Assembly (NCBI RefSeq): GCF_020804225.1
Contig: NZ_WJBI01000015.1
Location: forward strand, 25,757 to 89,756
Direction of reading: 5' to 3'
DNA from: Methanosarcina sp. DH2
GTDB taxonomy: Archaea > Halobacteriota > Methanosarcinia > Methanosarcinales > Methanosarcinaceae
Length of the DNA: 64,000 nt
In this document: in pieces, positions 1-16,102 of the stretch
Layout of the letters: the number at the start of each line of letters is the position of its first letter
Numbering within the stretch: the first letter of the stretch is position 1
Position numbers and translations under genes: made by a program
Notes under the pieces: model-generated
The model's input: only the letters and a program-made list of their open reading frames with translations
Databases searched by the model: none
Told to the model about the DNA's origin: nothing

Positions 1-371
1 AAGGTATGACGGTTCATCTGAAAGAATATGGTTTCATTAAAGTATTTAGGATAGTTTCCGGGGACGGAGACACGCAGTACTGGGCTACAGATGTACTGGA
101 TATGCAGGAAGAAAAAAGGAAAGATTTAGGGAAAAAAGCCTGGAAAATTGAAGAGTATCATAGAGGAATAAAGCAGTTTTGTGGAGTCGAAAGGTGTCAG
201 GCAAGAAGAAATAGTGTACAGAGAGCACATATTATGATGGCACTAAGAGCATTTCTAAGATTTGAAATGCAAAGAATAAAAACAGGAATTACATGGTTTG
301 AAACAAAGTTAAGCATTACAAGAAACGCTGTAAGTCAATATATCAGAAAACCAATATATGAATTAGATTAA
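1..371 (+). CDS. Transposase, C-terminal part (cut by window edge)
   Basis: The reading frame is open from the first bases, so the visible 121 or so residues are the C-terminal part of a longer protein. The stretch WKIEEYHRGIKQFCG followed by RCQAR is the kind of C-terminal catalytic-Glu region (Y..R..K) seen in DDE transposases of the IS4/IS701 group. The basic tail ends in YELD. Family assignment is from motif memory only. The element ends about 50 bases downstream, where it abuts a decayed secreted-protein gene, so it appears to have inserted there. Confidence 0.75.
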   Translation, partial: GMTVHLKEYGFIKVFRIVSGDGDTQYWATDVLDMQEEKRKDLGKKAWKIEEYHRGIKQFCGVERCQARRNSVQRAHIMMALRAFLRFEMQRIKTGITWFETKLSITRNAVSQYIRKPIYELD

Positions 372-952: not shown

Positions 953-1963
953 TTATGCTCCTTCAATAATTTTAAGGAACAGTTTCTGCAGATTCATTTC
1001 TTCTTCCTCGAACATGGATACTGTACCACCTGCTTTCCTGACAGCTTTTGCAATCTCCGTACGAAGCTTCGTCTCCGCATGTACTTGCAGAGTTTCGTCC
1101 TGAATTTCAAAGTCGGTCACCCCCTCCACATTTTTCACGGCTTCTGCTGCCTCAGAGAGCGGAATATCCTGAACCTCAAGCAAATAATGCAAACCCTCCT
1201 TTGCTCTGATTATATCCCGTAGGTCTTCGACCGACCCGACTGCCAGCAGTTTTCCTCTTGCGATTATTGCTATGCGGTCGCAGATCTCCTCAACTTCTTC
1301 CATGGAATGCGAACTCAGAAAAACGGTAACCCCTTTACTCCGGTTAAGGTCTTTTATAAGATCACGCATCATCTGAGCTCCAAGGGGATCGATGCCGCTT
1401 GTCGGCTCGTCAAGGAAAAGGACTGAAGGTTCATTAATAAGAGCCTGTGCAAGCCCGAAACGCTTACGCATGCCTGTGGAAAAACCGCCTGTTTTCTGGT
1501 CGATGGCACGGGTAAGGCCCACGGTTTCAAGTAAATTTACAATCCGTTTTTCCCTGACTTCGGATTCGATATCATAGAGTTTTGCATAAAAGCGAAGGTT
1601 CTGCCTTGCAGTGAGGTTGTCATAAAAACCGGCAGGTTCCGGAAGAACACCTGTTGTTTCCCTTATGTTTATTACCTCGCGGACAATATCAAAGCCTGCA
1701 ACTTTCCCGCTTCCTTCGCTTGGTTCAAGCAAACCGATTAGCATTTTCATGGTTGTGGTCTTACCAGCCCCGTTCGGGCCCACAAAGCCGAAAACTTCTC
1801 CTTTTCTTACCTGCAGGTTCAGATTATCAACCGCATGTATTTGATTCTCCTTCCCGAAAATTTTACTCAAATGAATGGTTTCTATAGCGAATTCATCTAC
1901 TTTCGGTACGATTTCGTTTAGTTCTAATTCCATGCTTATTGATTCCATACTCGTTGATTCCAT
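953..1963 (-). CDS. ABC transporter ATPase (NosF/NatA-like)
   Basis: This is the energy-supplying subunit for the ABC-2 permeases encoded upstream on the same strand. Walker A GPNGAGKTT lies at residues 62-70, the signature loop FSTGMRKR at 161-168, Walker B VLFLDEP at 181-187 and the switch His in SSHS near 219. The C-terminal ~90 residues form the extra domain common in ABC-2 drug/copper-type ATPases. It has 336 residues with an unusual N-terminus (MEST, MESI and MELE in series) before the domain. The start follows GGAAGGCG and lies one base after the stop of the NEW3 protein gene. It is the only ATPase in the nine-gene cluster, so it presumably serves all four permeases. Substrate unknown. 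Confidence 0.93.
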   Translation of the reverse strand: MESTSMESISMELELNEIVPKVDEFAIETIHLSKIFGKENQIHAVDNLNLQVRKGEVFGFVGPNGAGKTTTMKMLIGLLEPSEGSGKVAGFDIVREVINIRETTGVLPEPAGFYDNLTARQNLRFYAKLYDIESEVREKRIVNLLETVGLTRAIDQKTGGFSTGMRKRFGLAQALINEPSVLFLDEPTSGIDPLGAQMMRDLIKDLNRSKGVTVFLSSHSMEEVEEICDRIAIIARGKLLAVGSVEDLRDIIRAKEGLHYLLEVQDIPLSEAAEAVKNVEGVTDFEIQDETLQVHAETKLRTEIAKAVRKAGGTVSMFEEEEMNLQKLFLKIIEGA

Positions 1964-1964
1964 T

Positions 1965-3542
1965 TTATCGCCTTCCGAATTTACGTACTACAAAAACAAG
2001 CACAAGGACTGCAAATCCAAGCATTGCTATGCCTAGAAGTCCGCTACTTGCTGATTTTTCAACATTAACCTTGATACTTTTCTCAGAACTCACCAGGTCG
2101 TCACTCTTTGCCCGTATAAAAATTTCCTTAATACCGGAGCCGGCATTGGCATTTGCAGTTATCTCTACAGGAACACTTCTGGACTCTCCTGCTTCCAGCT
2201 CATCTATCGTTCCGAAACCCTGAATCTGCGCACTGATCCCATTTGCCTCATTAATTTCAAGAGTAACATCTTCCAGGTCTTCATCTCCTCTGTTTTCAAT
2301 ATTAACCCGGACTTCAGAAGAGCTGCCCGGATTCAGCGTCAATTCGCTGGGATTTGAATTGACTTTGAGCAGTTCCTCGTTTTCGATGTCGTTGTTAATG
2401 CCTACCTCAAGCTGCCGGGTAACTCTTTTATCCCCGCTCACCGCTGCTATTATGACCGGATAGAGTCCACTTGTGGCGTTTTGAGAAGGCTTGACCTTTA
2501 CTGTAAATTTCTGTTCTTCTCCTGCAGGAAGCATCAGGGAAGCAAGCCTTCCTTCCTTGTCTTCCTCGGTAAGAAATTCGGCTTTCCATCCTTCAGGTAA
2601 GCTTAAGACTTCAAGTTTCAGCTTAAGCGGTTGATCATACCGGTTTTTCAAAGAAACCGCAAATTCCGCAGTTTTTTCAGGTCGAATATCAAATCCCATT
2701 ATGTTGGAGTTCAGCTCTACGTACGCACTTAAATCCTCATCCAGGGAAAGTTCAGGGTTTATGCTTACGCTGAGCGGCAAAAATACACTCCGGTTTCCTT
2801 TTTCCGGGCATGCGGCTATCAAAATTTCGTAATCTCCTTTTGTTGCATTGAGCGGAGGATTTACAAGAATTTTAAACTCCTGGCTTCCATCTCCAGGAAC
2901 TCCTAATCTCGTAATTCTGGCTCCGTCAGTGGAAAGCAGATCAATTCCCCACTCCTCGGGTTTCGAAACCAGAAAAATCCGAAAGTTTGCTCTACTATCA
3001 TATTTATTTTCTACAAAAGCCCCGAAACTGACAGGAATCCCGGGATGGGTCTTTTTTCCAGGGATATCAGAATAAATCTCCAGGTTAGGCATTGCTGCCC
3101 TGTCAACCGTTACTGTAAATTCCCGAAAGATTGTATCAGAATTTGAAATATATTCCCCATAGGGCTTCAGACCTATTTTGATAGGATATTCTCCGTCCTT
3201 TGCATTTTCAGGAACTCTGATTTTAAGGATTAACTCCTTTTCACCAGCCTCTTTGGGCAGAGTTATGTGACTGACCTGGCTACCGTCGGCATAAATACCT
3301 GCAGTCCAGTTTTCAGGCACTTTACTTATGAAAAGCATGACCGATGTGCTCTTTGAGGTATTGTACCCTTTTTCCACAGTAAAGCTGAACTCTACAAGGT
3401 CCCCAGGTCTTGCAACCTTGCCACTGATGTCGTTCCCGACCGTGACCTGAGCGAAATCCGCTCCGGCCGGAAGAGACATGAGAGAGAATAGTGTGAGTAT
3501 TATCAACACGATTGGGAGGAACTTCTCTCTTATATCAAGCAC
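1965..3542 (-). CDS. Secreted membrane-anchored NEW3/Ig-like protein
   Basis: The protein is extracytoplasmic: it has a signal peptide at residues 1-28 (core IVLIILTLFSLMSL, then AGA), about four Ig-like beta domains and a C-terminal membrane segment near residues 500-521 followed by RKFGRR. The domains repeat the pattern of NEW3 (alpha-galactosidase-associated) folds, for example PGDLVEFSFTV, PVSFGAFVEN, TAEFAVSLKN and SSEVRVNIENRG, with 'LPEGW' or 'KPEEW' turns. It starts at GTG (3542) after GGAGGATATAA and overlaps the upstream permease by 8 bases, which suggests translational coupling. It may act as an external scaffold or binding subunit for the transporter. No enzyme motif is visible. 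Confidence 0.85.
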   Translation of the reverse strand: MLDIREKFLPIVLIILTLFSLMSLPAGADFAQVTVGNDISGKVARPGDLVEFSFTVEKGYNTSKSTSVMLFISKVPENWTAGIYADGSQVSHITLPKEAGEKELILKIRVPENAKDGEYPIKIGLKPYGEYISNSDTIFREFTVTVDRAAMPNLEIYSDIPGKKTHPGIPVSFGAFVENKYDSRANFRIFLVSKPEEWGIDLLSTDGARITRLGVPGDGSQEFKILVNPPLNATKGDYEILIAACPEKGNRSVFLPLSVSINPELSLDEDLSAYVELNSNIMGFDIRPEKTAEFAVSLKNRYDQPLKLKLEVLSLPEGWKAEFLTEEDKEGRLASLMLPAGEEQKFTVKVKPSQNATSGLYPVIIAAVSGDKRVTRQLEVGINNDIENEELLKVNSNPSELTLNPGSSSEVRVNIENRGDEDLEDVTLEINEANGISAQIQGFGTIDELEAGESRSVPVEITANANAGSGIKEIFIRAKSDDLVSSEKSIKVNVEKSASSGLLGIAMLGFAVLVLVFVVRKFGRR

Positions 3543-4446
3543 TTATATCCTCCCTCAAAAATTTCAGATACGCAGCTATCAGGAGGATTAGAGGAGCTGT
3601 GAACAGGACTGCAAGATTTGTCCAGAATTCTTTTAACCACTGAGCTAGAGTAAAACGAATATCCAGAATCCCACTTATGTTTTCCCTTTCTCCTCCTGCC
3701 CCCCATCCAAGGCTCGCTCTTCCAGTACTTAACTCTGCATAATGGTGCATTGGGGACAAAGCCGCAAGACTGTTAGTTATATCTAGGCTTCCAGCACTTA
3801 CTATAGGTTCAAGAGAATAACGGAAAAAAGTCAGTATCCAGGTAAACATAATACTAAGAGTTAACCAGATAACAATATTATAGACAATTGAGTCCGTAGA
3901 TTCTCTAATAAAGATAGAACAAACAAGCCCTATACCAAGGAATGACAGGGCATAAAGGAAAGTAAGAATAAACCAGACTGCAATTCTGTTTAATTCCATT
4001 AAGCTTACTTTTGTTCCCAGAAGGAGAATAATTGTTCCTAAGGAAATTCCGCTTGAGATCAGCATCACTACCAGGAGAAGAAGTACAGCTCCAAGCACTT
4101 TTCCAAGAATTATCGTGTCCCTGAATACGGGATGTGTTAACAAAACGTTCAAAGATGCTGATTTTCTTTCCTTTATTACGCTATCAAAGCTTAAGGAGAT
4201 ACCTATAAGTGGGCTGAACCAAGCCATCATTAATGAAGTATTATAAAATCCTTCAAGAACCGCTGATTGAGGTACAGGTATCTCGCCTATTTGGCTATAG
4301 AATTCTGTCTGAAGGATTTCTCTATATGTGACTGCAAATATTGCCAGTATTAAAGTTCCGAGTAAAGACAAAAAAATAGGACTCCAGAAGCTATCTGCAA
4401 ATTCTTTTTTGGCAATTATCAGAGCTTTTTCGAAATCGCAATTCAT
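3535..4446 (-). CDS. ABC-2 permease B' (NosY-like)
   Basis: This is a 303-residue integral membrane protein with about six hydrophobic segments. It shares with the three other permeases of the cluster the N-terminal KKEFADSFWSP motif and the cytoplasmic loop FDSVIKERKSASLN-LLTHPVFRD-II-GK, typical of NosY-type ABC-2 permeases. The extracytoplasmic segment LSPMHHYAELSTG pairs it with the permease at 7219-8136 (VSPLHHYSEVSVG), so this is the 'B' type of the duplicated block. It overlaps the NEW3 gene by 8 bases. Substrate unknown. Confidence 0.9.
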   Translation of the reverse strand: MNCDFEKALIIAKKEFADSFWSPIFLSLLGTLILAIFAVTYREILQTEFYSQIGEIPVPQSAVLEGFYNTSLMMAWFSPLIGISLSFDSVIKERKSASLNVLLTHPVFRDTIILGKVLGAVLLLLVVMLISSGISLGTIILLLGTKVSLMELNRIAVWFILTFLYALSFLGIGLVCSIFIRESTDSIVYNIVIWLTLSIMFTWILTFFRYSLEPIVSAGSLDITNSLAALSPMHHYAELSTGRASLGWGAGGERENISGILDIRFTLAQWLKEFWTNLAVLFTAPLILLIAAYLKFLREDISA

Positions 4447-4458
4447 TCTATCTTCCCC

Positions 4459-5349
4459 TCATATGTCTCTTCTAAGAAATGCTACATATGAAACTATAAA
4501 CATCAGTGAAGGTATGCCTGTCAATATCACCAGATTTGACCAATAATCAGCAAACCAGGTTCCAAGTCCAAATCTTGTGTCAAAAATTCCAAAAGTGTCT
4601 TTGCCTGATGAAATTCCAAAACTTCCATAACTTACACGGACTCCGGTTACGGCTTCAGCATAATAACTCGCAAGAGAAAGTTTTTGTAGGTCTTCACTCA
4701 TGGTCATGGCCTCTTCATTATTATTGAGGTCGACTATTAATTCCCCGGTGATAATAGATGAAGCAGCGGTAACTATAGCTCCGAAGATCAAAACCAGATT
4801 TATCCAAACTACAAGTCCGGAGATAAATGAGCTTTCGGAACTCTTAGAAATAACCGAAATTAACAGGCTGAAGGCAAAAAAACCTGAGAGATATAAGAAA
4901 GTGAGTAATGAAAAGATGAGGATCCGGTTTAGTTCAGAAAATCCAACATCTATCCCTGTTAATATCAGAAGTGTGCCTATTGAGGCGATGACCGAAATAA
5001 AAACTACAAAAATAAGAGCTCCAAGACCTCCTATGATTTTTCCACTTATGATATTGTCCCGGAAAACAGGATGTGTCAGCAATGTGTTCAATGATTTCGA
5101 ATTTTTTTCCCTAATGACCGAATCAAAGCCAAGGGAAAGGCCGAGGACAGGAAGAAAAAGTGTTATTACCTGGGCAATATCAAGAAAGCCAAATTCAAAT
5201 ATATTAAATCCGTTTTTTCCATAGTCAACACTCATTGAAAGAATGATCAATGTGAAAATTCCAAGTAACATCCTGAAACTAGGGCTGCATAGATGATCTG
5301 CAAATTCTTTCTGAGCAATGACCTCGATATTTCTCAGGTCTGCCTTCAC
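4459..5349 (-). CDS. ABC-2 permease A' (NosY-like)
   Basis: This is a multi-pass permease of about 296 residues with AQKEFADHLCSP near the N-terminus and the conserved loop FDSVIREKNSKSLN-LLTHPVFRDNII-GK. FEFGFLDIAQ and LQKLSLASYYAE group it with the permease at 8147 (type 'A'). The start is taken as GTG at 5349-5347, because GGAGG stands 8 bases before it and the GTG shares four bases (GTGA) with the stop codon of the upstream beta-propeller gene. A TTG at 5367 is possible but has no such site. The overlap implies coupled translation. Confidence 0.9.
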   Translation of the reverse strand: MKADLRNIEVIAQKEFADHLCSPSFRMLLGIFTLIILSMSVDYGKNGFNIFEFGFLDIAQVITLFLPVLGLSLGFDSVIREKNSKSLNTLLTHPVFRDNIISGKIIGGLGALIFVVFISVIASIGTLLILTGIDVGFSELNRILIFSLLTFLYLSGFFAFSLLISVISKSSESSFISGLVVWINLVLIFGAIVTAASSIITGELIVDLNNNEEAMTMSEDLQKLSLASYYAEAVTGVRVSYGSFGISSGKDTFGIFDTRFGLGTWFADYWSNLVILTGIPSLMFIVSYVAFLRRDI

Positions 5350-7151
5350 AGAAAAATCCTCCTGCAAATGAAAAAAAGAAGGAGCAGGACGACAGTAATT
5401 CCCCTGAAGCCCGGAACCTGAAATTCGGGCCTTGAATCTTCCTCTTTTTCAGAATCAGAAGATGTTTCCGAAACTACGGATTTTTCCGGAGATGCAGAGG
5501 AGTTCTCTTCCACGATAAGGACTTTACTTGCGGGTCTGTATCCTGCTTTGCTGGCATTTATCACATATTTTCCTTCAGCAGGACAGCTGTAGTTCAGAAA
5601 GCCTGAGCTGTTGGTAAAACCAATTTCTTGTTCATCAAGGGTTAGCAAAGCATCTGCAACAGGTTCCGACATGCAGTGGACTCTGAGTTCGCAGTTTTCT
5701 CCCCCAGTGGGCGTCAGGAAATCAATAGAAAGAGGGTCTTCGTATCCTCCGAGTTTTATTATAGATAAATCTGTGGGGTCGTTGCTAACGAGCAGTCTGC
5801 TCCCGTCAGGACTCCAGCCTTCTAGAAACCTATAATCTTTACCATCTTCAGTAAGTTGTATTTTTGTTGATCCGTCCGGAGTGAAAACAAAAATAGAACC
5901 TGATGAAATAAGACTGATGAAGTCTCCTGAAGGGTGCCATTCATAATCCGTTATTGCAGACGCGATAAGGTTTTTTTCACTTCCGTCAGGATTTATCGTA
6001 TAAAGATTATCGTCCTGTGCAAAAGCTATTTTATCTCCTTTAGGGCTCCAGCTGGGTTTGAAGATGATATATCCTGGAAATTCTTCAAGCAATTTTACAT
6101 TTTTTCCTGTAGAATCTGCCAGAAATATATTGACTCCGTCATCGTTTACGGTACTGAAAATCAGGCTTTTCCCATCTGGACTGAAACTAAAAACATCTTC
6201 ATTTCTGAAAAAAGATCCTGTTGAAAGTTGAACTTCATCTGTTCCATCAACTTTAATTGAATAGAGACCGAAATTATCATCAACATAGAAGATTCTGCTG
6301 TCATCAGGGTTCCAGGCAATCACTATCCCGTTATCCGCCAGTCTTTTATTCTCAGTTCCGTTCTCATTTATTATCCAGAGACCAGTTTCTTCGTCTTCGG
6401 TCTGGCCAGTAACGCTATACGCTATTTTTTTGCCATCGTTGCTCCACAGTGCAGCCTCTACACGATCAGATGTATCTGTAAGCTGCTTGAGCACATAGCC
6501 ATCCTGGTCAAGTAAATATAATTGATAATTCAGAGGGTCCAGATCCATTATTATAAGGGCTTTTGTACCTTCCGGATTCCACATAAAATTAGTTTGCCAT
6601 TCAATATTCAGAACATTTTCCTTTACTTCGTCAACTGATGTATAATTACATTTACCTGCAGTCTTGATCAATGTTTTATCCGGGTCTGCAATTACATAAA
6701 AGTCCCTTACTCTGGGAATATTTGAAAAAATTTCAATCCGGTTTCCATCCGGACTCCAGGATGTTTCCTGTGTCTGCAGGTTTTCCGGGATGTGCAGGCT
6801 CAGGGATTTTTCTTTTGTGTTGCTTGGAGTTGATGCAAGTTCTCGAATTCCGCTTCCATCTGCATTCAGCATATAAATTGCATGAAGAGTAGCTCCATAC
6901 TGAGAGTTAATAGATGCTTCTACCAGCAATTTGCTACTATCAGGACTCCATGAACCGCTAATTATGGGTTGTTCTTTGAGATTGGTTCCAGAAGATTCTA
7001 CAAGACTGTCAAAATAAGGGTTCACTATTTGTGATACGGACGTAATTTTTTCAACGCCCACACTAAGATTTTCAGATGAAGCTGCAAGACCTGTGGATGT
7101 GCTTGAAACAAACAGGATTAAAAGTAAGCTCATTTGCAATATCTTTCGCAT
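5346..7151 (-). CDS. Secreted beta-propeller (TolB/WD40-like) protein 1
   Basis: A signal peptide (MRKILQMSLLLILFVSS) is followed by about nine blade motifs of the WSPDG-S-L type (WSPDSSKLLV, WSPDGNRIEI, WNPEGTKALI, WSNDGKKIAY, WNPDDSRIFY, FSPDGKSLIF, WSPKGDKIAF and others). An Ig-like/PEGA-like beta domain follows (FTNSSGFLNYSC, GKYVINASKAGYRPASK). After an acidic Ser/Glu linker comes VPGFRG, a hydrophobic helix and RR, which resembles a PGF-CTERM archaeosortase signal. The start at 7151 is preferred because the signal peptide begins there with AAGGGA upstream; 7181 is an alternative. The protein should face the outside, anchored near the permeases. The gene's last bases double as the start region of permease A'. 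Confidence 0.88.
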   Translation of the reverse strand: MRKILQMSLLLILFVSSTSTGLAASSENLSVGVEKITSVSQIVNPYFDSLVESSGTNLKEQPIISGSWSPDSSKLLVEASINSQYGATLHAIYMLNADGSGIRELASTPSNTKEKSLSLHIPENLQTQETSWSPDGNRIEIFSNIPRVRDFYVIADPDKTLIKTAGKCNYTSVDEVKENVLNIEWQTNFMWNPEGTKALIIMDLDPLNYQLYLLDQDGYVLKQLTDTSDRVEAALWSNDGKKIAYSVTGQTEDEETGLWIINENGTENKRLADNGIVIAWNPDDSRIFYVDDNFGLYSIKVDGTDEVQLSTGSFFRNEDVFSFSPDGKSLIFSTVNDDGVNIFLADSTGKNVKLLEEFPGYIIFKPSWSPKGDKIAFAQDDNLYTINPDGSEKNLIASAITDYEWHPSGDFISLISSGSIFVFTPDGSTKIQLTEDGKDYRFLEGWSPDGSRLLVSNDPTDLSIIKLGGYEDPLSIDFLTPTGGENCELRVHCMSEPVADALLTLDEQEIGFTNSSGFLNYSCPAEGKYVINASKAGYRPASKVLIVEENSSASPEKSVVSETSSDSEKEEDSRPEFQVPGFRGITVVLLLLFFICRRIFL

Positions 7152-7218
7152 ATAATCCCTTATGAATGTAAATTTATTCATTTCTCGGCTTCCAGAATAT
7201 TTTAAAAAAATAAAAAAG

Positions 7219-8136
7219 TCAGGCATCTATATCCCTCCTTAAAAAAGTCAAAAATGAAAGAATAAAAAGCGGCAGAGGAGCTATAATTAAAAAGAGCAGA
7301 TTCGGCCAGAACTCACCAAACCATTGAAAAATAGTAAAGCGTGTATCAAAAATTCCCTTGATTACAGGTTCACTATTAACTCCTCCCCAGCTAAGATCAA
7401 TATCTCCGACTGATACTTCGCTGTAGTGATGAAGCGGTGAAACAGTTACCATTTTGGATGCCAATTCGAAAGGTTCGGATTGCCCGGTAACAATTGATGC
7501 AATTGCAATAATGATCGAGCCAGAAACAATGCAGATTGAAAGCCATATTATAACATTGTACACCAATGAATCCTCAGCATCATTGGACACGATAGATAAT
7601 AATATTGCAATTTCAGCGAAGATTAATACGTAAAAAAAATTGAAAATTATGGATACTATAATTCTTATGAATTCTGTTTCACTCATGGAAACGCCAGAGA
7701 GCATAAGAATGGTTCCGGCCGGAACTATCGTCGAAAAGATAATGACAGTCATAAGAACGCCCATTATCCCGACCATTTTACCAGCTATTATGTTATCTCT
7801 GAAAACCGGATGGGTCAAAAGTACGTTCAGGGACCCAGACTTTCTCTCTTTTACAATAGTGTCAAATCCCAGTGCAATTCCGATCAAAGGTGAGAACCAT
7901 CCGATTTGCCAAGTAACACTTCTGAAGCCGGACATTAATGTAAACTCACCTCCAGACTGCTCCACCATATATTCTCCCAAATATACACTTCGATATGAAA
8001 AAGCAAAAATTATCAGGGTATAGGTAGCAATTAAAGCTAAAAATAGTGAGCTTGATGTGATATCTGCAAATTCTTTTTGTGCAATTTGGAATATATTTTT
8101 TACATTTGGGATCATACTTTTTATTTGTCGGCTCAT
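7219..8136 (-). CDS. ABC-2 permease B (NosY-like)
   Basis: A 305-residue membrane protein. It has IAQKEFADITSSS near the N-terminus, the loop FDTIVKERKSGSLN-LLTHPVFRDNII-GK and the segment VSPLHHYSEVSVG shared with the permease at 3535. The start ATG follows GAGGGAAAGACG. It lies 10 bases after the type A permease gene and just before the first beta-propeller gene, which makes it the last member of the upstream propeller-A-B block. Confidence 0.9.
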   Translation of the reverse strand: MSRQIKSMIPNVKNIFQIAQKEFADITSSSLFLALIATYTLIIFAFSYRSVYLGEYMVEQSGGEFTLMSGFRSVTWQIGWFSPLIGIALGFDTIVKERKSGSLNVLLTHPVFRDNIIAGKMVGIMGVLMTVIIFSTIVPAGTILMLSGVSMSETEFIRIIVSIIFNFFYVLIFAEIAILLSIVSNDAEDSLVYNVIIWLSICIVSGSIIIAIASIVTGQSEPFELASKMVTVSPLHHYSEVSVGDIDLSWGGVNSEPVIKGIFDTRFTIFQWFGEFWPNLLFLIIAPLPLFILSFLTFLRRDIDA

Positions 8137-8146
8137 CGTCTTTCCC

Positions 8147-9046
8147 TCAGTTACTTATATCCTGCTTCAAAAAAGCCATAAAAGATATGATAAGCATGAT
8201 TAATGGTGCTGACAATAAAATTACTATATTTGTCCAGCATTCTCCCAGCCACTGGTTAAGCGTGTAACTTAGATCAAATATTCCTTTAACGGAGTCAGGA
8301 CCTATTTCCGAAACTCCTCCCCAGGTCATCTCTGGAACTCCGATCACAAGCTCCGAATAATAATGAACTGGAGTTAGTTTTTGAAGTTGTGCGTTGAGAG
8401 CCAACATGTTTTCATTGTTGCTGTAGTCAAAAATAGATTGACCAGTAACTGTTGTCGCAATCACAACGATAAGACCGCCGTATACAACGCATAAGATCAG
8501 CCATGCACAGATTCCATAACCCAGAGAATTGACCGCATTTTTTGAAACGATTGAGGTGAATATCCCCAGTAACAAAAAAAATGATAAATAAAGGTAGGTC
8601 AATACCGTAAATATGAATACTCTGCTCAATTCAGAAAAAGTTACTTGAATACCGGAAACGAGCAGTATAGTCCCTACTGACACTATTACAGAAATAAAAA
8701 CCACAAGCACAAGGGTTATCATTGCACCCAGGATCTTACCTGTGATGATGTTGTCCCTGTACAATGGATGGGTCAAGAGAACATTTAAAGAAGAAGATTT
8801 TTTTTCTTTGATTATGCTATCAAAACCGAGTGAAATTCCTAGCAAGGGCAGGAACACAGCAATAATCTGGGCTACATCAAGAAAGCCCATTTCAAATATA
8901 CTGAGACCATTTATTGAAGCGCGATAGCTAAAAGAAAACAAAATTATTGCAAAAACTGAAACCAGGGAAACAAATCTCGGGCTCCATAAGTTATCTGCAA
9001 ACTCTTTCTGTGCAACCACCAGGACATTTTTAATATTCACTTCCAT
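8147..9046 (-). CDS. ABC-2 permease A (NosY-like)
   Basis: A 299-residue integral membrane protein. It has VAQKEFADNLWSP near the N-terminus, FDSIIKEKKSSSLN-LLTHPLYRDNIITGK in the first cytoplasmic loop, and FEMGFLDVAQ and LQKLTPVHYYSE, all shared with the permease at 4459. The start follows AGGGGATATGA. Spacing to both neighbours is 10-25 bases, consistent with one transcript. It should pair with a type B permease to form the membrane channel of an ABC-2 transporter. Confidence 0.9.
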   Translation of the reverse strand: MEVNIKNVLVVAQKEFADNLWSPRFVSLVSVFAIILFSFSYRASINGLSIFEMGFLDVAQIIAVFLPLLGISLGFDSIIKEKKSSSLNVLLTHPLYRDNIITGKILGAMITLVLVVFISVIVSVGTILLVSGIQVTFSELSRVFIFTVLTYLYLSFFLLLGIFTSIVSKNAVNSLGYGICAWLILCVVYGGLIVVIATTVTGQSIFDYSNNENMLALNAQLQKLTPVHYYSELVIGVPEMTWGGVSEIGPDSVKGIFDLSYTLNQWLGECWTNIVILLSAPLIMLIISFMAFLKQDISN

Positions 9047-9068
9047 TCATATCCCCTGATTAACCTTA

Positions 9069-10988
9069 CTATTTTTTGTTTATTGTATGGAAATAAAATA
9101 GTACAGATATAAGCCCAAAACACGTTAAACATGCAGTAAATCCAGGCAGTTCTGCATCATTTGCATCTGGGGGAGTCACAATTTCCAGGGCAACTTTATC
9201 ACTGATTTCCTGTTCACCTGTATAACCTTTAACTGTGACTATCCGACTTGTGGTAGAGTACCCTTCTTTAACAGCTCTAATCTGAAACTCACCTTCTTTG
9301 CTAAACCTGTATACCAGAGCTCCTTTTTCGTCTGTTGTTCCAACAGATTCATTCCCTGCAAAAATGGTTACACCACCAATTTTTCCGGAACTTGACCTGA
9401 CTGAAATATTAATATCAGACTCGCTCACAGGACCTCTTTCAATTTCTATGAACATTGGCAAGTCATATTCAGGTAATTCCAGAAGATAATCCTGAGAAAC
9501 ATAATCCTTGTAGGAATTCTCCTCATCGGAAGAGGCTTCTGGAGAAAATGTCCTGGCAATGAGATAACGTCCAGCCGGACTCCAGCTTATCTCCTCAATA
9601 TAAGAAACGGGAAGTTGAATTGTCTTTAATTCTTTTGTGGACGCGTTGATTAAGGCTAACGTATTACTCTGAGTTTCATTTGCAACTCCAAGAACCAGGT
9701 CCCCTTTGTTATTCCAGGCATATCCGTTTTGAAATATGTCCCAGTGTTTTTCTCCTGAGCCGTCGCTGGACATTAAAACATACTCAATAATACCTCGATC
9801 AGATAATCTATTGTATTTACCGGAAGAGTGAGTTATTTCGATAAATTCTCCTGAAGGGCTTAAAGATACAACAAAATCACTGGAACTGCTGAACAACCGG
9901 GTTTTGCTGTCCCCATCAGCAGACATGGAATAGAGGGTATATATGCTTCCAGTCTCATTTTTCGAGAGTTCCTGAAATATAATATTATAACTGTCAGGCA
10001 ACCATCCATAAACAATACCGTAATTAAGAGATACCGGCCGATTGGATTGTTTATTTTCTACATCAATAATGTGTATATCAGAAATTAGCTTGCCAGACTC
10101 TTCATTCCCTATAAATTCGTATGCAGCAAGTTTGCTGCTATCAGGACTCCACGCAGTCCTGTCAAAGCAAATATTATCTGCTGAAAAAACTGTATTTACC
10201 TCATTGCTTGCAGGATTCAGAATGAAAAGATCTCCCTCTTCTGCAAAAACGACCTTTTTTCCATCAGGAGACCAGATAAAATCATTATTACTAAATTTAG
10301 TTTTATAATTCTTTACCGGAGTCTCTTCTGAAACATTATCTACCAGATCCAGAATAAACACAGATGATTCCTTATTTTCGTTAAAACCAGCATACAGCAG
10401 CTTATCACCTTTCGGAGACCATTCGTAGACAGGTCCCTCCAGTGAAATCTGTTCCTTTGCGAGCAAATCCAGACTTTCCGAGTCAACTACATTAATGTAG
10501 TGGGTTCCGCCAATAAAATGAACATTACCACCCGAAGATTCCTGATACATGAATGAATCTCCCGCGCGGTTCCATACTGGTATAGCTATTCCGTTGTGTC
10601 CATTTCTCTGGCGAGTATAAGGTGTGTTTTCGGCCCAGGCTATTAGTTTTTCCCCGGACCCGTCCCCATTTGCAAGGTACAGAGCCTGCACCTGTGCCAG
10701 TGTTGTCTGGCTCTCCTGATTCTTCGTACAGACATCAATTAATACAAAAACAAGAACACGAGTTCCGGAAGGGTCCCAGTAAAAAAATAATATCGGACTT
10801 CCATCTACATCAAGGCGGCTTTTGTCCACGCGGCTTAAAGCATCTTTACCAATAGTCTGATTGAGATCAGATACTAATGAGGCATCCATTGGATCAGAGC
10901 TTATGTTATCTGCAGAGGCTAAATCCATTGCAGAAATCATCAACACAAATATTAACAACATATACAATAGATTACATTTCCTATACAT
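9069..10988 (-). CDS. Secreted beta-propeller (TolB/WD40-like) protein 2
   Basis: Paralogue of the propeller at 5346, with 639 residues. A signal peptide (LLYMLLIFVLMISA) precedes about nine blades (WDPSGTRVLV, WNRAGDSFMY, WSPKGDKLLY, WSPDGKKVVF, WSPDSSKLAA, WLPDSYNIIF, WNNKGDLVLG, WSPAGRYLIA). An Ig-like/carboxypeptidase-regulatory type domain follows (GTTDEKGALVYRFSKEGEF, AVKEGYSTTSR). The tail ELPGFTACLTCFGLISVLFYF then KK fits a PGF-CTERM-like anchor. GGTGGA stands before the ATG. It probably folds as an extracytoplasmic sensor or binding protein for the ABC-2 system. No ligand is evident. Confidence 0.88.
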   Translation of the reverse strand: MYRKCNLLYMLLIFVLMISAMDLASADNISSDPMDASLVSDLNQTIGKDALSRVDKSRLDVDGSPILFFYWDPSGTRVLVFVLIDVCTKNQESQTTLAQVQALYLANGDGSGEKLIAWAENTPYTRQRNGHNGIAIPVWNRAGDSFMYQESSGGNVHFIGGTHYINVVDSESLDLLAKEQISLEGPVYEWSPKGDKLLYAGFNENKESSVFILDLVDNVSEETPVKNYKTKFSNNDFIWSPDGKKVVFAEEGDLFILNPASNEVNTVFSADNICFDRTAWSPDSSKLAAYEFIGNEESGKLISDIHIIDVENKQSNRPVSLNYGIVYGWLPDSYNIIFQELSKNETGSIYTLYSMSADGDSKTRLFSSSSDFVVSLSPSGEFIEITHSSGKYNRLSDRGIIEYVLMSSDGSGEKHWDIFQNGYAWNNKGDLVLGVANETQSNTLALINASTKELKTIQLPVSYIEEISWSPAGRYLIARTFSPEASSDEENSYKDYVSQDYLLELPEYDLPMFIEIERGPVSESDINISVRSSSGKIGGVTIFAGNESVGTTDEKGALVYRFSKEGEFQIRAVKEGYSTTSRIVTVKGYTGEQEISDKVALEIVTPPDANDAELPGFTACLTCFGLISVLFYFHTINKK

Positions 10989-11046
10989 TGTTCCACCATT
11001 TGCGAGTGAAAAAAATTAAAAGGAGAAAAGATCAATTTCCTTCTCT

Positions 11047-11463
11047 TTAATCAAGCTGCGGATTTCTTCCAGCGAGGAACTTGTATAGGCTATTTCCTCC
11101 ATCGATTTTAATTCGAGGCAAGGGATCAGTATACACATCGCCCCAATGGTCACTATAGGAGGAACTGACGCGTGCTGTATAAGAACTCGATGTTTTGTAC
11201 AGCCTCATATCCCCATTGGCACCATCAATAAATTGTTTCTCTAAATCTATGTACACATTCTCTCCAGTATATGCAGTAAACTTAAACCAGTCTGGCACAC
11301 TCGAACTTTTTACATAACTTCCATAAATCCAGAGAGTTCCTTCTGGGACACTAATTGTAGTCGCCTCACCATAGGTATGTCCAACTGCCATGGCGGTTCC
11401 CATGTTCAGAACTAGAATCGCTGCAAATAACATACCGATTTCAAGTTTTCTCTTTATTGTCAT
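11047..11463 (-). CDS. Small secreted protein, first gene of ABC cluster
   Basis: A predicted signal peptide (MLFAAILVLNMGTAMA) is followed by about 110 residues with a beta-rich pattern (ISVPEGTLWIYGSYV, DWFKFTAYTGENVYIDLEK, MRLYKTSS) reminiscent of PPC-type beta-sandwich domains. The last 20 residues (GGNSLYKFLAGRNPQLD) look unlike the rest. In the +1 frame the same DNA encodes MEEIAYTSSSLEEIRSLIKEKEID and a few more residues, a much more protein-like tail. A frameshift, or fusion to a gene remnant, is therefore possible. GCGAGGT precedes the start. It heads the transcript with the propeller and permease genes. Function not recognised. Confidence 0.65.
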   Translation of the reverse strand: MTIKRKLEIGMLFAAILVLNMGTAMAVGHTYGEATTISVPEGTLWIYGSYVKSSSVPDWFKFTAYTGENVYIDLEKQFIDGANGDMRLYKTSSSYTARVSSSYSDHWGDVYTDPLPRIKIDGGNSLYKFLAGRNPQLD

Positions 11464-12079: not shown

Positions 12080-12835
12080 CTATTCAAACAATTTCATATC
12101 CTTTTTGATTACATCCCGATAAACAGAATTTATACTGTATGTTGTCTTCCTTCCTATTTTATTTTCTTCAATAAGATCTAACTCCTTTAATTGTTTAATA
12201 TACCAAGTAATTGCACCTTTGGAAATTCCTATTGTCCGGGCAAGATCTCCGTTAGTGTTACATTCTTCCTTTAATATCTTTGAAATTATCTTTAGAATCA
12301 TTTCATTTTGAAGGGCTGAAATAACCAGCTTTTCTTTTTCACTGTATGTGGAATTATTCTGGAAATATCGGAATTTTCCTAGATCATTGTGAACTTCGAT
12401 CATGTTTTCCATTTCTAGAATATTGAGATGATGGCATAGAGTCATCCGATTCAGACCCATATTATTTACAATCTCACTAACACAGACCCCAGGATTGGTT
12501 TTGATAAAGGAATATATATTCTTTCTCTTCAGAACTCCAACAGCATTTGAACGATCCGCCGCTCGAAACCCAAGTATTGCGAAAATAAGCTTTGTAGGAT
12601 ACAGTAGGGTATCTATTATCGATAAGATTTGCATAGTTGCCAGCCAAAGGAGGAACTGCCAGTAGGGTATTGGGATGACTTCAAGTTCTACTACCTCTTC
12701 TCCGTTAATTGAAGCTCCGGCTTGATTACTTGGAGCGGGGCTCACAATATATTCCGTAGCTCCGGCTGTAGTTGTTAAAAGAAAAAATAGTAAACAGATG
12801 GCAAGCTTCTTTTGAAGCTTAGTGCTGGTAAACAT
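12080..12835 (-). CDS. Membrane-tethered regulator with two winged helices
   Basis: A likely one-component transcription factor. The start is taken at ATG 12835 (MFTSTKLQKKL), so that it begins with a signal-anchor helix (LAICLLFFLLTTTAGA). A short external loop of about 35 residues follows (starting TEYIVSPAPSNQAG), then a second hydrophobic helix (FLLWLATMQILSIIDTLLY), leaving two consecutive winged-helix DNA-binding domains in the cytoplasm (SEIVNNMGLNRMTLCHHL; ARTIGISKGAITWYIKQL). It overlaps the end of the upstream secreted-protein gene by 17 bases. Its promoter is therefore probably the one before 13319. A role in regulating the neighbouring ABC cluster is inferred from position only. 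Confidence 0.8.
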   Translation of the reverse strand: MFTSTKLQKKLAICLLFFLLTTTAGATEYIVSPAPSNQAGASINGEEVVELEVIPIPYWQFLLWLATMQILSIIDTLLYPTKLIFAILGFRAADRSNAVGVLKRKNIYSFIKTNPGVCVSEIVNNMGLNRMTLCHHLNILEMENMIEVHNDLGKFRYFQNNSTYSEKEKLVISALQNEMILKIISKILKEECNTNGDLARTIGISKGAITWYIKQLKELDLIEENKIGRKTTYSINSVYRDVIKKDMKLFE

Positions 12836-13319
12836 TAAATGAGTAGTCCTCGGTTCCACTGACCGATTCTCCATAGATCTTAAACTTCCAGACTCCCTGT
12901 TCCATGTATCCCTGGGAGGGGTATATATTGAGGCGTATCCTACCGTTTATGCTTCCATCAGAATTATCACGGTAGGTTCCGATTTTGCTTCCTGAAGGGG
13001 TGTAAATGCTGAGAGTCAGGGAATCACTCGTATCTCCCCAATTCAAATCCACTTCAAGATAGTTTACTCCCGAGCCCACATTTACATTGTTAGTTATAGT
13101 CTGCCCCTGGCTTATGTACTGGGTTAATCACAAAGAAGAAATAAAATTCTCTGTATCAGAAGAATTTTCTATCCAGGGGCTAACAATGTACTCTATTCCA
13201 GCAGAAGCCGGAGCATCTACCGTGTTTGAATTTTCCGTGTGTTCCTCTTCAGCTGAAACCGCAGGCACAGCCATCAATCCTATAACGATGCATAATACTA
13301 ATATTTTCCATCTTTTCAT
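12819..13319 (-). pseudogene. Secreted protein gene broken by one in-frame TGA
   Basis: From ATG 13319 the frame encodes a signal peptide (MKRWKILVLCIVIGLMAVPAVSA) and a mature part starting EEEHTENS, with IEYIVSPW, to a TGA at 13130-13128. The same frame continues without shift (LTQYISQGQTITNN, then GSGVNYLEVDLNWGD, WKFKIYGESVSG, FNVYQH) to 12819. The region after the stop is a typical beta-sandwich, so one nonsense change splits a ~166-residue secreted protein. UGA is not the pyrrolysine codon of Methanosarcina. A downstream GTG restart at 13079 is possible but would lack a signal peptide. Homologues usually sit beside membrane wHTH genes, as here (inference). An assembly error is the alternative. 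Confidence 0.75.
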
Positions 13320-13739
13320 AATACTACCCAAAGAAATGGGTTAAAAGTCCGAATATATATAACTTCTGTGTAAGTCATCAAACAATCATCATATCTGTCT
13401 TTATGAAAGATTACTACTAAATTAAAAAGATCGTCTAAAAAAGGCGTAATGATACCCTTTACCCGGGATATTTCTTCAAAAAAATAGAGATTTAAGGATG
13501 TTTTTTCGTCCTCAGCATCAGGATAAAATAGTAAATTTTTTATATAGCCTCTTAAAGGCTTTCAGAGAAGCTGCTTTCCAGCTCCTGCACCGGATTTACA
13601 CTCGTAAACTTCCGTGATCTTCATGACAGCAAGGGCTTTTGCAGGGAACCGGTCTCCCATTTTCTTGACAGTTTTGTACATATTCTCGTAATCTTCCCCG
13701 TCCGTTTTAACTACAAAATCTCCCTTTATCTGGTAGCAG
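13302..13739. repeat. Right copy of ~440 bp direct repeat
   Basis: Partner of 424-862. It spans the first codons and promoter of the secreted gene, the intergenic region, and the 3' half of the intact PNPOx-like gene. Recombination between the copies would delete about 12.9 kb containing the ABC cluster and the regulator. Confidence 0.8.
13353..13363 (-). promoter_or_regulatory. TATA box for secreted gene and regulator
   Basis: The minus strand reads TTATATATATTC about 34-44 bases before the ATG at 13319, with GGTAG just before the start codon. The element is conserved in the left repeat copy (474-485). Confidence 0.55.
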
Positions 13740-13969
13740 CCCTTGACTTCAGGACCCCATACATAGATTGCTCCTCTCGGGTTTTCTTCAAGGTTCTGGC
13801 GAGTCTTGTGGAAGTAGTTATCTGCAATCCAGATAGTTTCTCTGTCTTCCTGGAGCTTGCAAAAACCAATTGGTATTACGTTCGGATCTCCATTTCTGGA
13901 GGCGGTTGCAAAGGGAAAAATCTTCATTTTTTCAAAATCTTCGACCATTTCACTGCTCAGTTTGACCAT
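13562..13969 (-). CDS. Pyridoxamine 5'-phosphate oxidase-like FMN-binding protein
   Basis: A 135-residue protein of the PNPOx-like split-barrel flavin-binding family. It has FPFATASRNGDPNVIPIGF near the N-terminus, TIWIADNYFHKTRQNLEENPRGAIYVW in the middle and a short C-terminal region typical of small archaeal members, which use FMN or F420-like cofactors. The specific substrate cannot be told. GGAGTG precedes the ATG. A truncated paralogue lies at 684-862. It is separate from the pdx genes downstream; the 14 kb spacer (13970-14266) is purine-rich and otherwise empty. Confidence 0.85.
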   Translation of the reverse strand: MVKLSSEMVEDFEKMKIFPFATASRNGDPNVIPIGFCKLQEDRETIWIADNYFHKTRQNLEENPRGAIYVWGPEVKGCYQIKGDFVVKTDGEDYENMYKTVKKMGDRFPAKALAVMKITEVYECKSGAGAGKQLL

Positions 13970-14266
13970 TTACTTCACTCCTTCATTGAAGCTTTTTTTA
14001 TTAATATGGATACAATGAATATATAACTTTGAAGGCATCAAAAACATAGAATGTTCAAAGGTTTCAGTTCTGCTTTTTTACCTGCAGGAAAAATATGCAG
14101 AAAAAAAGCCTAAAGGGAAGAAAAAAGTAAAGAAGCGTAGAGAAAAAATGACGAAATGCAATTAATGTAAAGAAAAAGAGATAGGGGTAAGAATAGAGAT
14201 AGGGAAAAGGAAAGAGATAAGGATCAGTTGCCGGAAACAAAACCGTGGACCTGACCCGTGTGCCTC

Positions 14267-14866
14267 TTAACAGTTGAGAATCTTGTCCAGGAAATACTGG
14301 TGGATGCGCAGATCATCGGTTAATTCCGGGTGAAAAGCAAGAGCCAGCACGTTTCCCTGTTCTGCAGCAATAATCATATCTCCAAGCCTGGAAAGAACCT
14401 TCACACCTGGCCCGCAACTTACGATTCCAGGAGCCCGGATAAACACGCCGGTAAAAGGAGAGTCAAAGATAGCTACTTCAAGTTTCGCCTCAAAGGAATC
14501 TCTTTGCCTCCCAAAAGCGTTTCTGTTGACTCTGGTATCCATTATCCCTAGCAGTTCCTGGCCTGTCTTCTCTACCTGCTGGTCTCCTTCCTTTGCAAGC
14601 ACGATAAGTCCTGCACAGGTCCCGAGGGTAGGAACTCCTTTTGCAGCCGCCTCCTTAATCTCTTCCGCAATTCCCTCGCGGGCAAGTAGCCTGCAAAGTG
14701 TTGTACTTTCTCCGCCAGGAATCACAATCCCGCTACACTTCGGGACAATTCCTTTATGCTTTATCTCAACTACCTCTGCATCTATTCCTCGTTTCTCAAG
14801 GGCTCTCCGTAAAGCATCAACATGCTCAGAAACCGCTCCCTGAATAGCGATTACACCTATTTTCAT
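14267..14866 (-). CDS. pdxT: Pyridoxal 5'-phosphate synthase glutaminase subunit PdxT
   Basis: Glutaminase subunit that releases ammonia from glutamine and passes it to PdxS for pyridoxal phosphate synthesis. Starting at MKIGVIAIQG (14866) it has 199 residues, the family's usual size. It shows the GGESTT oxyanion loop, the nucleophile Cys84 in GTCAG and the His179/Glu181 pair in FHPEL. The ten residues that could precede this Met have no family counterpart. It lies downstream of pdxS on the same strand, but 1.2 kb further on start to start, with a repeat-filled spacer of about 310 bases between the genes. Confidence 0.96.
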   Translation of the reverse strand: MKIGVIAIQGAVSEHVDALRRALEKRGIDAEVVEIKHKGIVPKCSGIVIPGGESTTLCRLLAREGIAEEIKEAAAKGVPTLGTCAGLIVLAKEGDQQVEKTGQELLGIMDTRVNRNAFGRQRDSFEAKLEVAIFDSPFTGVFIRAPGIVSCGPGVKVLSRLGDMIIAAEQGNVLALAFHPELTDDLRIHQYFLDKILNC

Positions 14867-15178
14867 TAAAAACACCATTTTCCAGAAATTAATCATTCAT
14901 TTGTTGACTCAAAAAATGTAAAAATTAAATTGATTCTACTCTTACAAACCTATAAGAATAAATCTGTTTTTAAAAAATTAAATTTTAGCCCCTTGAAAGA
15001 AGCTAATTTATAACGTAAATTAGTCCTTTTAGCTCAGCTCAATAGTAACCCGTAAATTAGTCCTTGAGTTTAGCTCACTGCAATAACTTCCAAAGTAGTC
15101 CTCTTGAGCGAAGCGAAAAGAACTGCGGGCTCCAGAATCGCAATTCGGGTGGCGCAACTCGGGATTACTTAGTGGATT
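14867..15178. repeat. pdxS-pdxT spacer with dispersed repeat, copy A
   Basis: The spacer holds an inverted copy of a dispersed intergenic repeat: AGTCCTCTTGAGCGAAGCGAAAAG at 15096 onward, running to about 15165 (TCGCAATTCGGG). This is the reverse complement of the module at 20608-20709. Two extra copies of its end (GTAAATTAGTCCTT) lie at about 15015 and 15053. The short tandem set suggests repeated insertion or slippage inside what is normally a tight operon. Confidence 0.6.
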
Positions 15179-16075
15179 TTACCAGCCGCGTTCCTGAAGG
15201 GCTTCCTCTACTGGAATCATATCTGCACAGATACCTTTCATACCTGCACCCACGCCTTTTGAGATTTCAGCGAGTTTTGCAGGGTTATCGTAGTTGTTTA
15301 CAGCTTCAACGATTGCTTTTGCCATCTTTTCGGGGTTTTCAGCTTTGAAAATTCCTGACCCGACAAAGACCCCGTCTGCACCAAGGCGCATCATAAGTGC
15401 GGCATCTGCAGGGGTTGCAACTCCGCCGGCTGCAAAGTTTACCACGGGCAAACGCTGCATTTTAGAGGTTTCAACTACAAGTTCTATCGGGGCTTCGATA
15501 TCCCTTGCAACCATTATAAGTTCTTCTTTGGTCTTGCCGGCAAGAGCACGAATTTCTCCCTGGATCTGCTTCATATGCTTTACTGCCTGGCTGACGTCGC
15601 CTGTTCCGGCTTCTCCTTTGGTCCGGATCATGGCTGCACCTTCGTTGATCCTGCGGAGAGCTTCTCCGAGGTTTCTGGCTCCGCAGACAAAAGGCACTGT
15701 AAACTGGGTCTTGTCTATGTGATAGAAAGGATCTGCAGGAGTAAGGACTTCGGATTCGTCAACCATGTCAACGCCAAGCGCCTCCAGGATTTCGGCTTCG
15801 ACAAAGTGTCCGATCCTTGCTTTTGCCATAACAGGAATGGTGACCGTATCAATGATCTGCTGGACAATTTCAGGGTCTGCCATCCGGGCAACTCCACCCT
15901 CTTTTCTAATATCTGCAGGGACAGCCTGAAGGGCCATAACAGCAACTGCTCCGGCTTCTTCTGCGATCCTGGCCTGTTCTGGAGTTGTAACGTCCATGAT
16001 CACACCCCCTTTCTGCATCCGTGCAAAGCCCCTCTTGATAAGTTCGGTCCCATGTCTCAATTTTTCAAAGTCCAT
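15179..16075 (-). CDS. pdxS: Pyridoxal 5'-phosphate synthase subunit PdxS
   Basis: Synthase subunit that condenses ribose 5-phosphate, glyceraldehyde 3-phosphate and PdxT-derived ammonia into pyridoxal phosphate. A TIM barrel of about 298 residues with the hallmark stretches [37 protein letters not shown], the lysine-bearing [15 protein letters not shown] and [10 protein letters not shown]. The start at 16075 (MDFEKL) is chosen because GAGG stands about nine bases upstream; ATG 16084 and TTG 16102 lie further up without better sites. The C-terminus (EEALQERGW) is intact. Confidence 0.97.
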
Positions 16076-16102
16076 GAATGTCATCCTCTTTGTTTTGATC
16101 AA

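Follow-up and report, generated by a model that had tools for sequence, protein, structure and literature searches.

The window, a stretch of 64,000 nucleotides from Methanosarcina sp. DH2, carries an operon for an ABC-2-type system on its minus strand, between positions 953 and 11463. The ATPase, the NEW3 protein, the four permeases and the two β-propellers listed in a first-pass annotation of this DNA were all confirmed there. The repetition of the cassette, a small secreted protein (SSP) whose reading frame (11047–11463) falls within the same coordinates, a regulator pair and the wide spread of the NEW3-ATPase-permease core are additional to that annotation. The features are as follows.

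11047–11463, minus strand: SSP, the small secreted protein of 138 aa whose gene opens the operon; signal peptide followed by about 110 residues, of no known family
10989–11046, minus strand: spacer between SSP and propeller A, with a terminator-like hairpin/T-run (TTTTTTT)
9069–10988, minus strand: propeller A; signal peptide, TolB/WD40-type β-propeller, Ig-like domain, and an anchor of LPGF, hydrophobic segment and KK
8147–9046, minus strand: permease 1 of cassette A, NosY-type ABC-2
7219–8136, minus strand: permease 2 of cassette A, ABC2_membrane_2
5346–7226, minus strand: propeller B; TolB-like propeller (PD40, E 1e-16), Ig-like domain, and an anchor of VPGF, hydrophobic segment and RR
4459–5367, minus strand: permease 1 of cassette B, ABC2_membrane_2
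3535–4446, minus strand: permease 2 of cassette B, ABC2_membrane_2
1965–3542, minus strand: NEW3 protein with a signal peptide, external NEW3/CARDB Ig-like domains (NPCBM_assoc, E 1e-23), one C-terminal transmembrane segment ending in KFGRR
953–1963, minus strand: ABC ATPase, DrrA/NosF/ABCA-like (ABC_tran, E 3e-29), motifs intact
12080–12874, minus strand: membrane-bound regulator with two winged helices, conserved beside the module
12819–13360, minus strand: secreted PPC-domain partner of the regulator, with an in-frame TGA here and intact in relatives

In the order of transcription, the genes encode the SSP, propeller A, permease 1, permease 2, propeller B, a further permease 1 and permease 2, the NEW3 protein and the ATPase. 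The window contains a propeller-permease 1-permease 2 cassette twice, together with a single energizer composed of the NEW3 protein and the ATPase. Annotated genes overlap or are separated by no more than about 22 nt, except at the 58-nt spacer between SSP and propeller A, the sole long gap within the operon. All four permeases match ABC2_membrane_2 (E 7e-26 to 3e-33), the ATPase retains its Walker A (GPNGAGKT), signature (FSTGM), LFLDEP and LSSH motifs, and the FGRR tail of the NEW3 protein is invariant in 12 of 12 alignment rows. Homologs of propeller B start about 25 codons inside the annotated reading frame, and the ATG at 7226 is probably not the true start. Judged by eye, the sequence next to the 3′ end of the operon (6–371, plus strand) resembles a transposase fragment, and the genes upstream of the operon (13562–16102, minus strand) resemble those for a split-barrel protein that binds FMN and for pyridoxal phosphate synthase (PdxT/PdxS).

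As previously proposed, the permeases are of the NosY type, NosY being their only relative in a profile search of the PDB (E 6.5e-20), and the ATPase is similar to those of the ABCA and NosF type (NosF, E 7e-46). In a maximum-likelihood tree of 73 permeases, the permease 1 and permease 2 positions formed two separate clades, with the window permeases at 8147–9046 and 4459–5367 in one half and those at 7219–8136 and 3535–4446 in the other. Across 31 cassettes, permease 1 and permease 2 distances were correlated with r = 0.955 and propeller distances followed those of either permease with r = 0.87–0.88, the maximum of the permutation null being about 0.22. Moreover, permease 1 and permease 2 are fused into one chain of 683 aa in a rumen Methanosarcinaceae locus (L144), and this natural fusion supports a permease heterodimer. 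The propellers diverge faster than the permeases, sharing 20% identity between cassettes A and B of the window as compared to 42–46% for the permeases. The TM2-TM3 loop, pointed out earlier as common to the four permeases, ranks with the best-conserved regions of the family, with an entropy of 0.81 bits (0.86 bits for the cytoplasmic N-terminus) versus 2.0–2.4 bits in the outside loops.

The external genes encode propellers rather than NosD, in line with the replacement postulated at the outset. Propeller A gave weak Pfam matches; its AlphaFold model (mean pLDDT 81) consists of a propeller, an Ig-like domain and a C-terminal helix. Foldseek returned many propellers with high rmsd, the archaeal S-layer propeller 1l0q standing out by E-value and the nine-bladed eIF3b ranking among the better TM-scores, and the model suggests roughly 8–9 blades. 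The PGF-like anchors ascribed to these proteins are present in both window propellers, as a PGF motif followed by a hydrophobic stretch and a basic tail, and archaeosortase A (ArtA) is encoded in the same genome (260 bits). Of the 49 cassette propellers, however, only 26 have PGF at this place (PSF in 14, xGF in 6, other in 3). Many homologs carry PSF or SGF, and the NCBI PGF-CTERM model was not among the matches.

Both propellers were searched in 150 genomes of the order and a permease alignment in a genome collection of about 85,000 species, and the fetched loci were annotated. In this way, 49 distinct cassettes with linked propeller and permease genes were recovered from Methanosarcinaceae and Methanoperedens, and a NEW3 gene directly follows 22 of them; among the named carriers are Methanosarcina spelaei, Methanosarcina sp. 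KYL-1 and 2.H.T.1A.6, Methanolobus profundi, Methanococcoides seepicolus and Methanoperedens. The linkage of propellers to permeases, singled out beforehand in the first-pass annotation as one point on which its proposal could fail, recurs in many other genomes. Among 58 distinct propeller homologs in the fetched pieces, 25 lack adjacent permeases; these lie partly at contig or locus ends or form tandem propellers, and are truly unlinked in several Methanoperedens-type and other genomes. Tandem propellers preceding one permease pair, or propellers without permeases, were seen in L045, L091, L102 and L110 and are possible alternative outside subunits. A separate arrangement was found in six Methanoperedens-type loci (L055, L057–L061), where relatives of propeller B stand beside an HTH regulator with no ABC genes; in the one locus tested (L059), the neighbors are a DUF7343/MarR-type HTH protein and a weakly matching Ig-like (Transglut_C) protein.

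NEW3-ATPase-permease triads devoid of propellers occur in Bathyarchaeota, ANME-1, Lachnospiraceae and Desulfobacterales (L145–L150, L153–L155, L163). This uncharacterized triad of archaea and bacteria shares with the window operon homologous NEW3, ATPase and permease genes side by side, but it lacks an outside propeller cassette in the loci read and usually has a single permease. Given its presence in both archaea and bacteria, the triad looks like the older core, to which the cassette was added. A propeller-free, independent permease-ATPase-NEW3 triad is also found in genome G133 (L215, at 5.37 Mb).

The outside slot of the cassette is swappable between unrelated proteins. It is occupied by a TolB-like propeller in Methanosarcinales and by an RCC1-type propeller in Methanocella (E 4e-96 to 1e-66 in three proteins), while two Methanocella cassettes bear an Ig-like protein of 277–280 aa. 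In Methanoperedens locus L142, an M28 peptidase (8352–9968; E 9e-36) with a C-terminal hydrophobic segment takes the propeller's place and is followed by a single permease, a NEW3 gene and an ATPase gene. That two propeller families are used in one slot suggests that the machine requires the propeller shape as such.

A gene for a small secreted protein comes first in most of the complete cassettes examined, and the SSP is a conserved component of the operon. Fourteen SSP homologs at the matching position share 32–48% identity with the window SSP, their alignment showing conserved D-W and D/F/G positions; more distant cassettes, including those of Methanocella, have secreted reading frames of 135–175 aa in first position with little sequence similarity. 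The SSP gave no Pfam, NCBIfam or PDB match, and AlphaFold with 8 sequences returned an unusable model (pLDDT 43). A bacteriocin-like identity of the secreted proteins was also considered and was dropped, as neither NCBIfam nor Pfam returned a match. In 13 of 16 loci, the SSP gene and its downstream neighbor are separated by a run of six or more T residues, often with a hairpin, against 2.1 expected from base shuffles that ignore relatedness and hence overstate significance. This element suggests that more SSP than transporter may be produced. The SSP being without a known fold, it is by position only the leading candidate for a ligand.

The assignment of one ATPase to four permeases was supported and could be extended to many genomes. 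Energizers were counted via NEW3 genes, used as a stand-in for family ATPases, with split matches of one NEW3 gene taken as one. The permease:NEW3 ratio is 4:1 in the genome of the window, 6:1 and 4:1 in the one- and two-contig genomes G133 and G137, and elsewhere 8:1 (G130), 12:1 (G057), 4:1 (G087) or 2:1 (G116, G127, G097 and G065). In the complete Methanocella-type genome G157 (3,179,916 bp), 8 cassettes account for 16 permeases, and there are 2 full-length NEW3 genes, both of which adjoin an ATPase gene, so that specific modules outnumber energizers in complete genomes (6:1, 4:1 and 16:2). No family ATPase lies alongside the G157 cassettes at about 1.41, 1.60, 1.93, 2.30 and 3.12 Mb; one lone-cassette locus of this genome has a weak ABC ATPase match several kb off. 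Ratios of up to 12:1 and 16:2 support the idea that one ATPase and one NEW3 protein serve several cassettes. ATPase-facing loops are conserved in ABC-2 proteins anyway, which weakens loop conservation as an argument for sharing; taken together, gene counts and loop conservation are in keeping with a shared ATPase and NEW3 protein and support, rather than prove, such sharing. The complete genome G132, in which one cassette but no NEW3 relative was found, speaks against it.

In many full loci, the module is flanked by the membrane-anchored double winged-helix regulator, usually with the secreted PPC-domain protein (PPC, E 5e-6) encoded just upstream, and the pair is kept beside the module from Methanocella to Methanosarcina. 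The in-frame TGA of the window copy of the partner gene (12819–13360, minus strand) lies about a third of the way into the gene.

Starting from the observed parts, their order, their co-inheritance and the ratio of cassettes to energizers, we tentatively propose a modular, NosDFY-like ABC-2 system with a shared ATPase and NEW3 protein and an outside ligand specific to each cassette, a reading to which we give slightly less than an even chance. The two different NosY-type permeases of a cassette would form a heterodimer, on whose extracellular loops the membrane-anchored propeller would dock from outside, and the SSP of each cassette would be the ligand or a ligand carrier. The cytoplasmic loops, which hardly vary, would allow one ATPase to bind any of the permease pairs, and a single NEW3 protein may act as an outer brace common to the cassettes. 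ATP hydrolysis would then move the propeller, and by this movement a molecule specific to the cassette would be bound, released, extracted or loaded at the cell surface, the direction, too, being presumed. The regulator and its secreted PPC-domain partner would switch the system on when an outside signal is met.

Among the alternatives, the one that fares best, though we consider it unlikely, is self-protection or peptide handling, in which the SSP would be antimicrobial-like, or such a molecule would be sensed, and the propeller and permease pair would clear the membrane. LanFEG combines one ABC-2 ATPase, two different permeases and a surface-anchored accessory binder, LanI (PMC4239024), and the same stoichiometry of one ATPase, two distinct permeases and an anchored outside partner is seen here. 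The multiplication of cassettes, the fast divergence of their outside parts, a regulator with an outside partner and the single peptidase in the outside slot also fit such a role. However, the published description of LanFEG (PMC4239024) includes neither a propeller nor a NEW3 protein, and there is no lantibiotic at the window locus and no obvious biosynthesis gene in the operon. The mature SSP, of about 110–130 aa, is without a bacteriocin match; against lantibiotic family models, the window ATPase scores 191 at a cut-off of 310 (galliderm model) and the permeases yield no match, with GldF and RbbA models matched weakly instead.

More doubtful still is a sensor complex akin to flux sensing by BceAB, in which permeases and propeller would detect an outside signal and inform the membrane-bound regulator with little transport. 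The conservation of the regulator and its secreted partner next to the module points in this direction, as do the Methanoperedens propeller relatives that adjoin a different HTH regulator without a permease. Yet the regulator already has an outside partner of its own, cassettes have expanded in several loci without matching regulator copies, and the ATPase motifs are intact. We consider it equally doubtful that orphan cassettes stand apart from the shared ATPase, being decaying copies or served by unrelated ABC ATPases. Some arrays have broken ATPase pieces nearby (139 aa in L044, 81 aa in L102), and the complete genome G132 has one cassette, no NEW3 relative and another ABC ATPase downstream, so that part of the orphan cassettes may be in decay or may depend on a different ATPase. 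Orphan cassettes nevertheless keep long, intact reading frames and co-diverge, and the pattern recurs in Methanocella with its 16 permeases and 2 NEW3 genes.

A role in delivering a metal or assembling a cofactor, on the model of NosDFY (the CuZ center of nitrous oxide reductase requires NosFY and NosD; PMC7558416), is very improbable: although NosY is the closest solved permease, neither a conserved Cys nor a ligand-like His/Met set occurs in the propellers, the NEW3 protein or the SSP, the only conserved outside His pair of the permeases is missing from the window permease at 4459–5367, and the window operon has no NosD β-helix partner, no nosZ or nosL, and no metalloenzyme or metal chaperone gene. 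The metal substrate suggested at first was thus not borne out. The present system shares with NosDFY the permease type, the ATPase type and a separate external partner, but differs in an anchored propeller in place of NosD, two distinct permeases per unit, a NEW3 subunit and several units per energizer. Anti-phage defense was also considered and was rejected, PADLOC giving only generic ATPase and HTH matches.

Returning to the modular system, we possibly, with close to an even chance, see here a plug-in archaeal ABC-2 platform, in which one ATPase and a NEW3 brace would energize many, partly unlinked cassettes of secreted protein, swappable module and heterodimeric permeases. Group II ECF transporters and multitask ATPases such as MsmX likewise couple one energizing module to several specific modules encoded elsewhere; those systems, however, are importers, whereas the present permeases have the ABC-2 fold and sharing is deduced from gene counts. 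Among exporter-type ABC systems, we know of none described with ATPase sharing of this kind. As the first-pass annotation had surmised, no description of the full gene set was found in open-licence PMC text; this combination of genes does exist, is conserved and, to the extent that it could be searched for, is undescribed.

If sharing is real, the system would mirror the ECF importers on the exporter side, and would do so in genetically tractable organisms (Methanosarcina); it would also offer a testable case of ABC-2 machines driving proteins outside the cell, and it would point to uncharacterized secreted proteins in methanogens and methane-oxidizing archaea. It may handle different surface molecules in a plug-in manner, each pump set having its own propeller and secreted protein.
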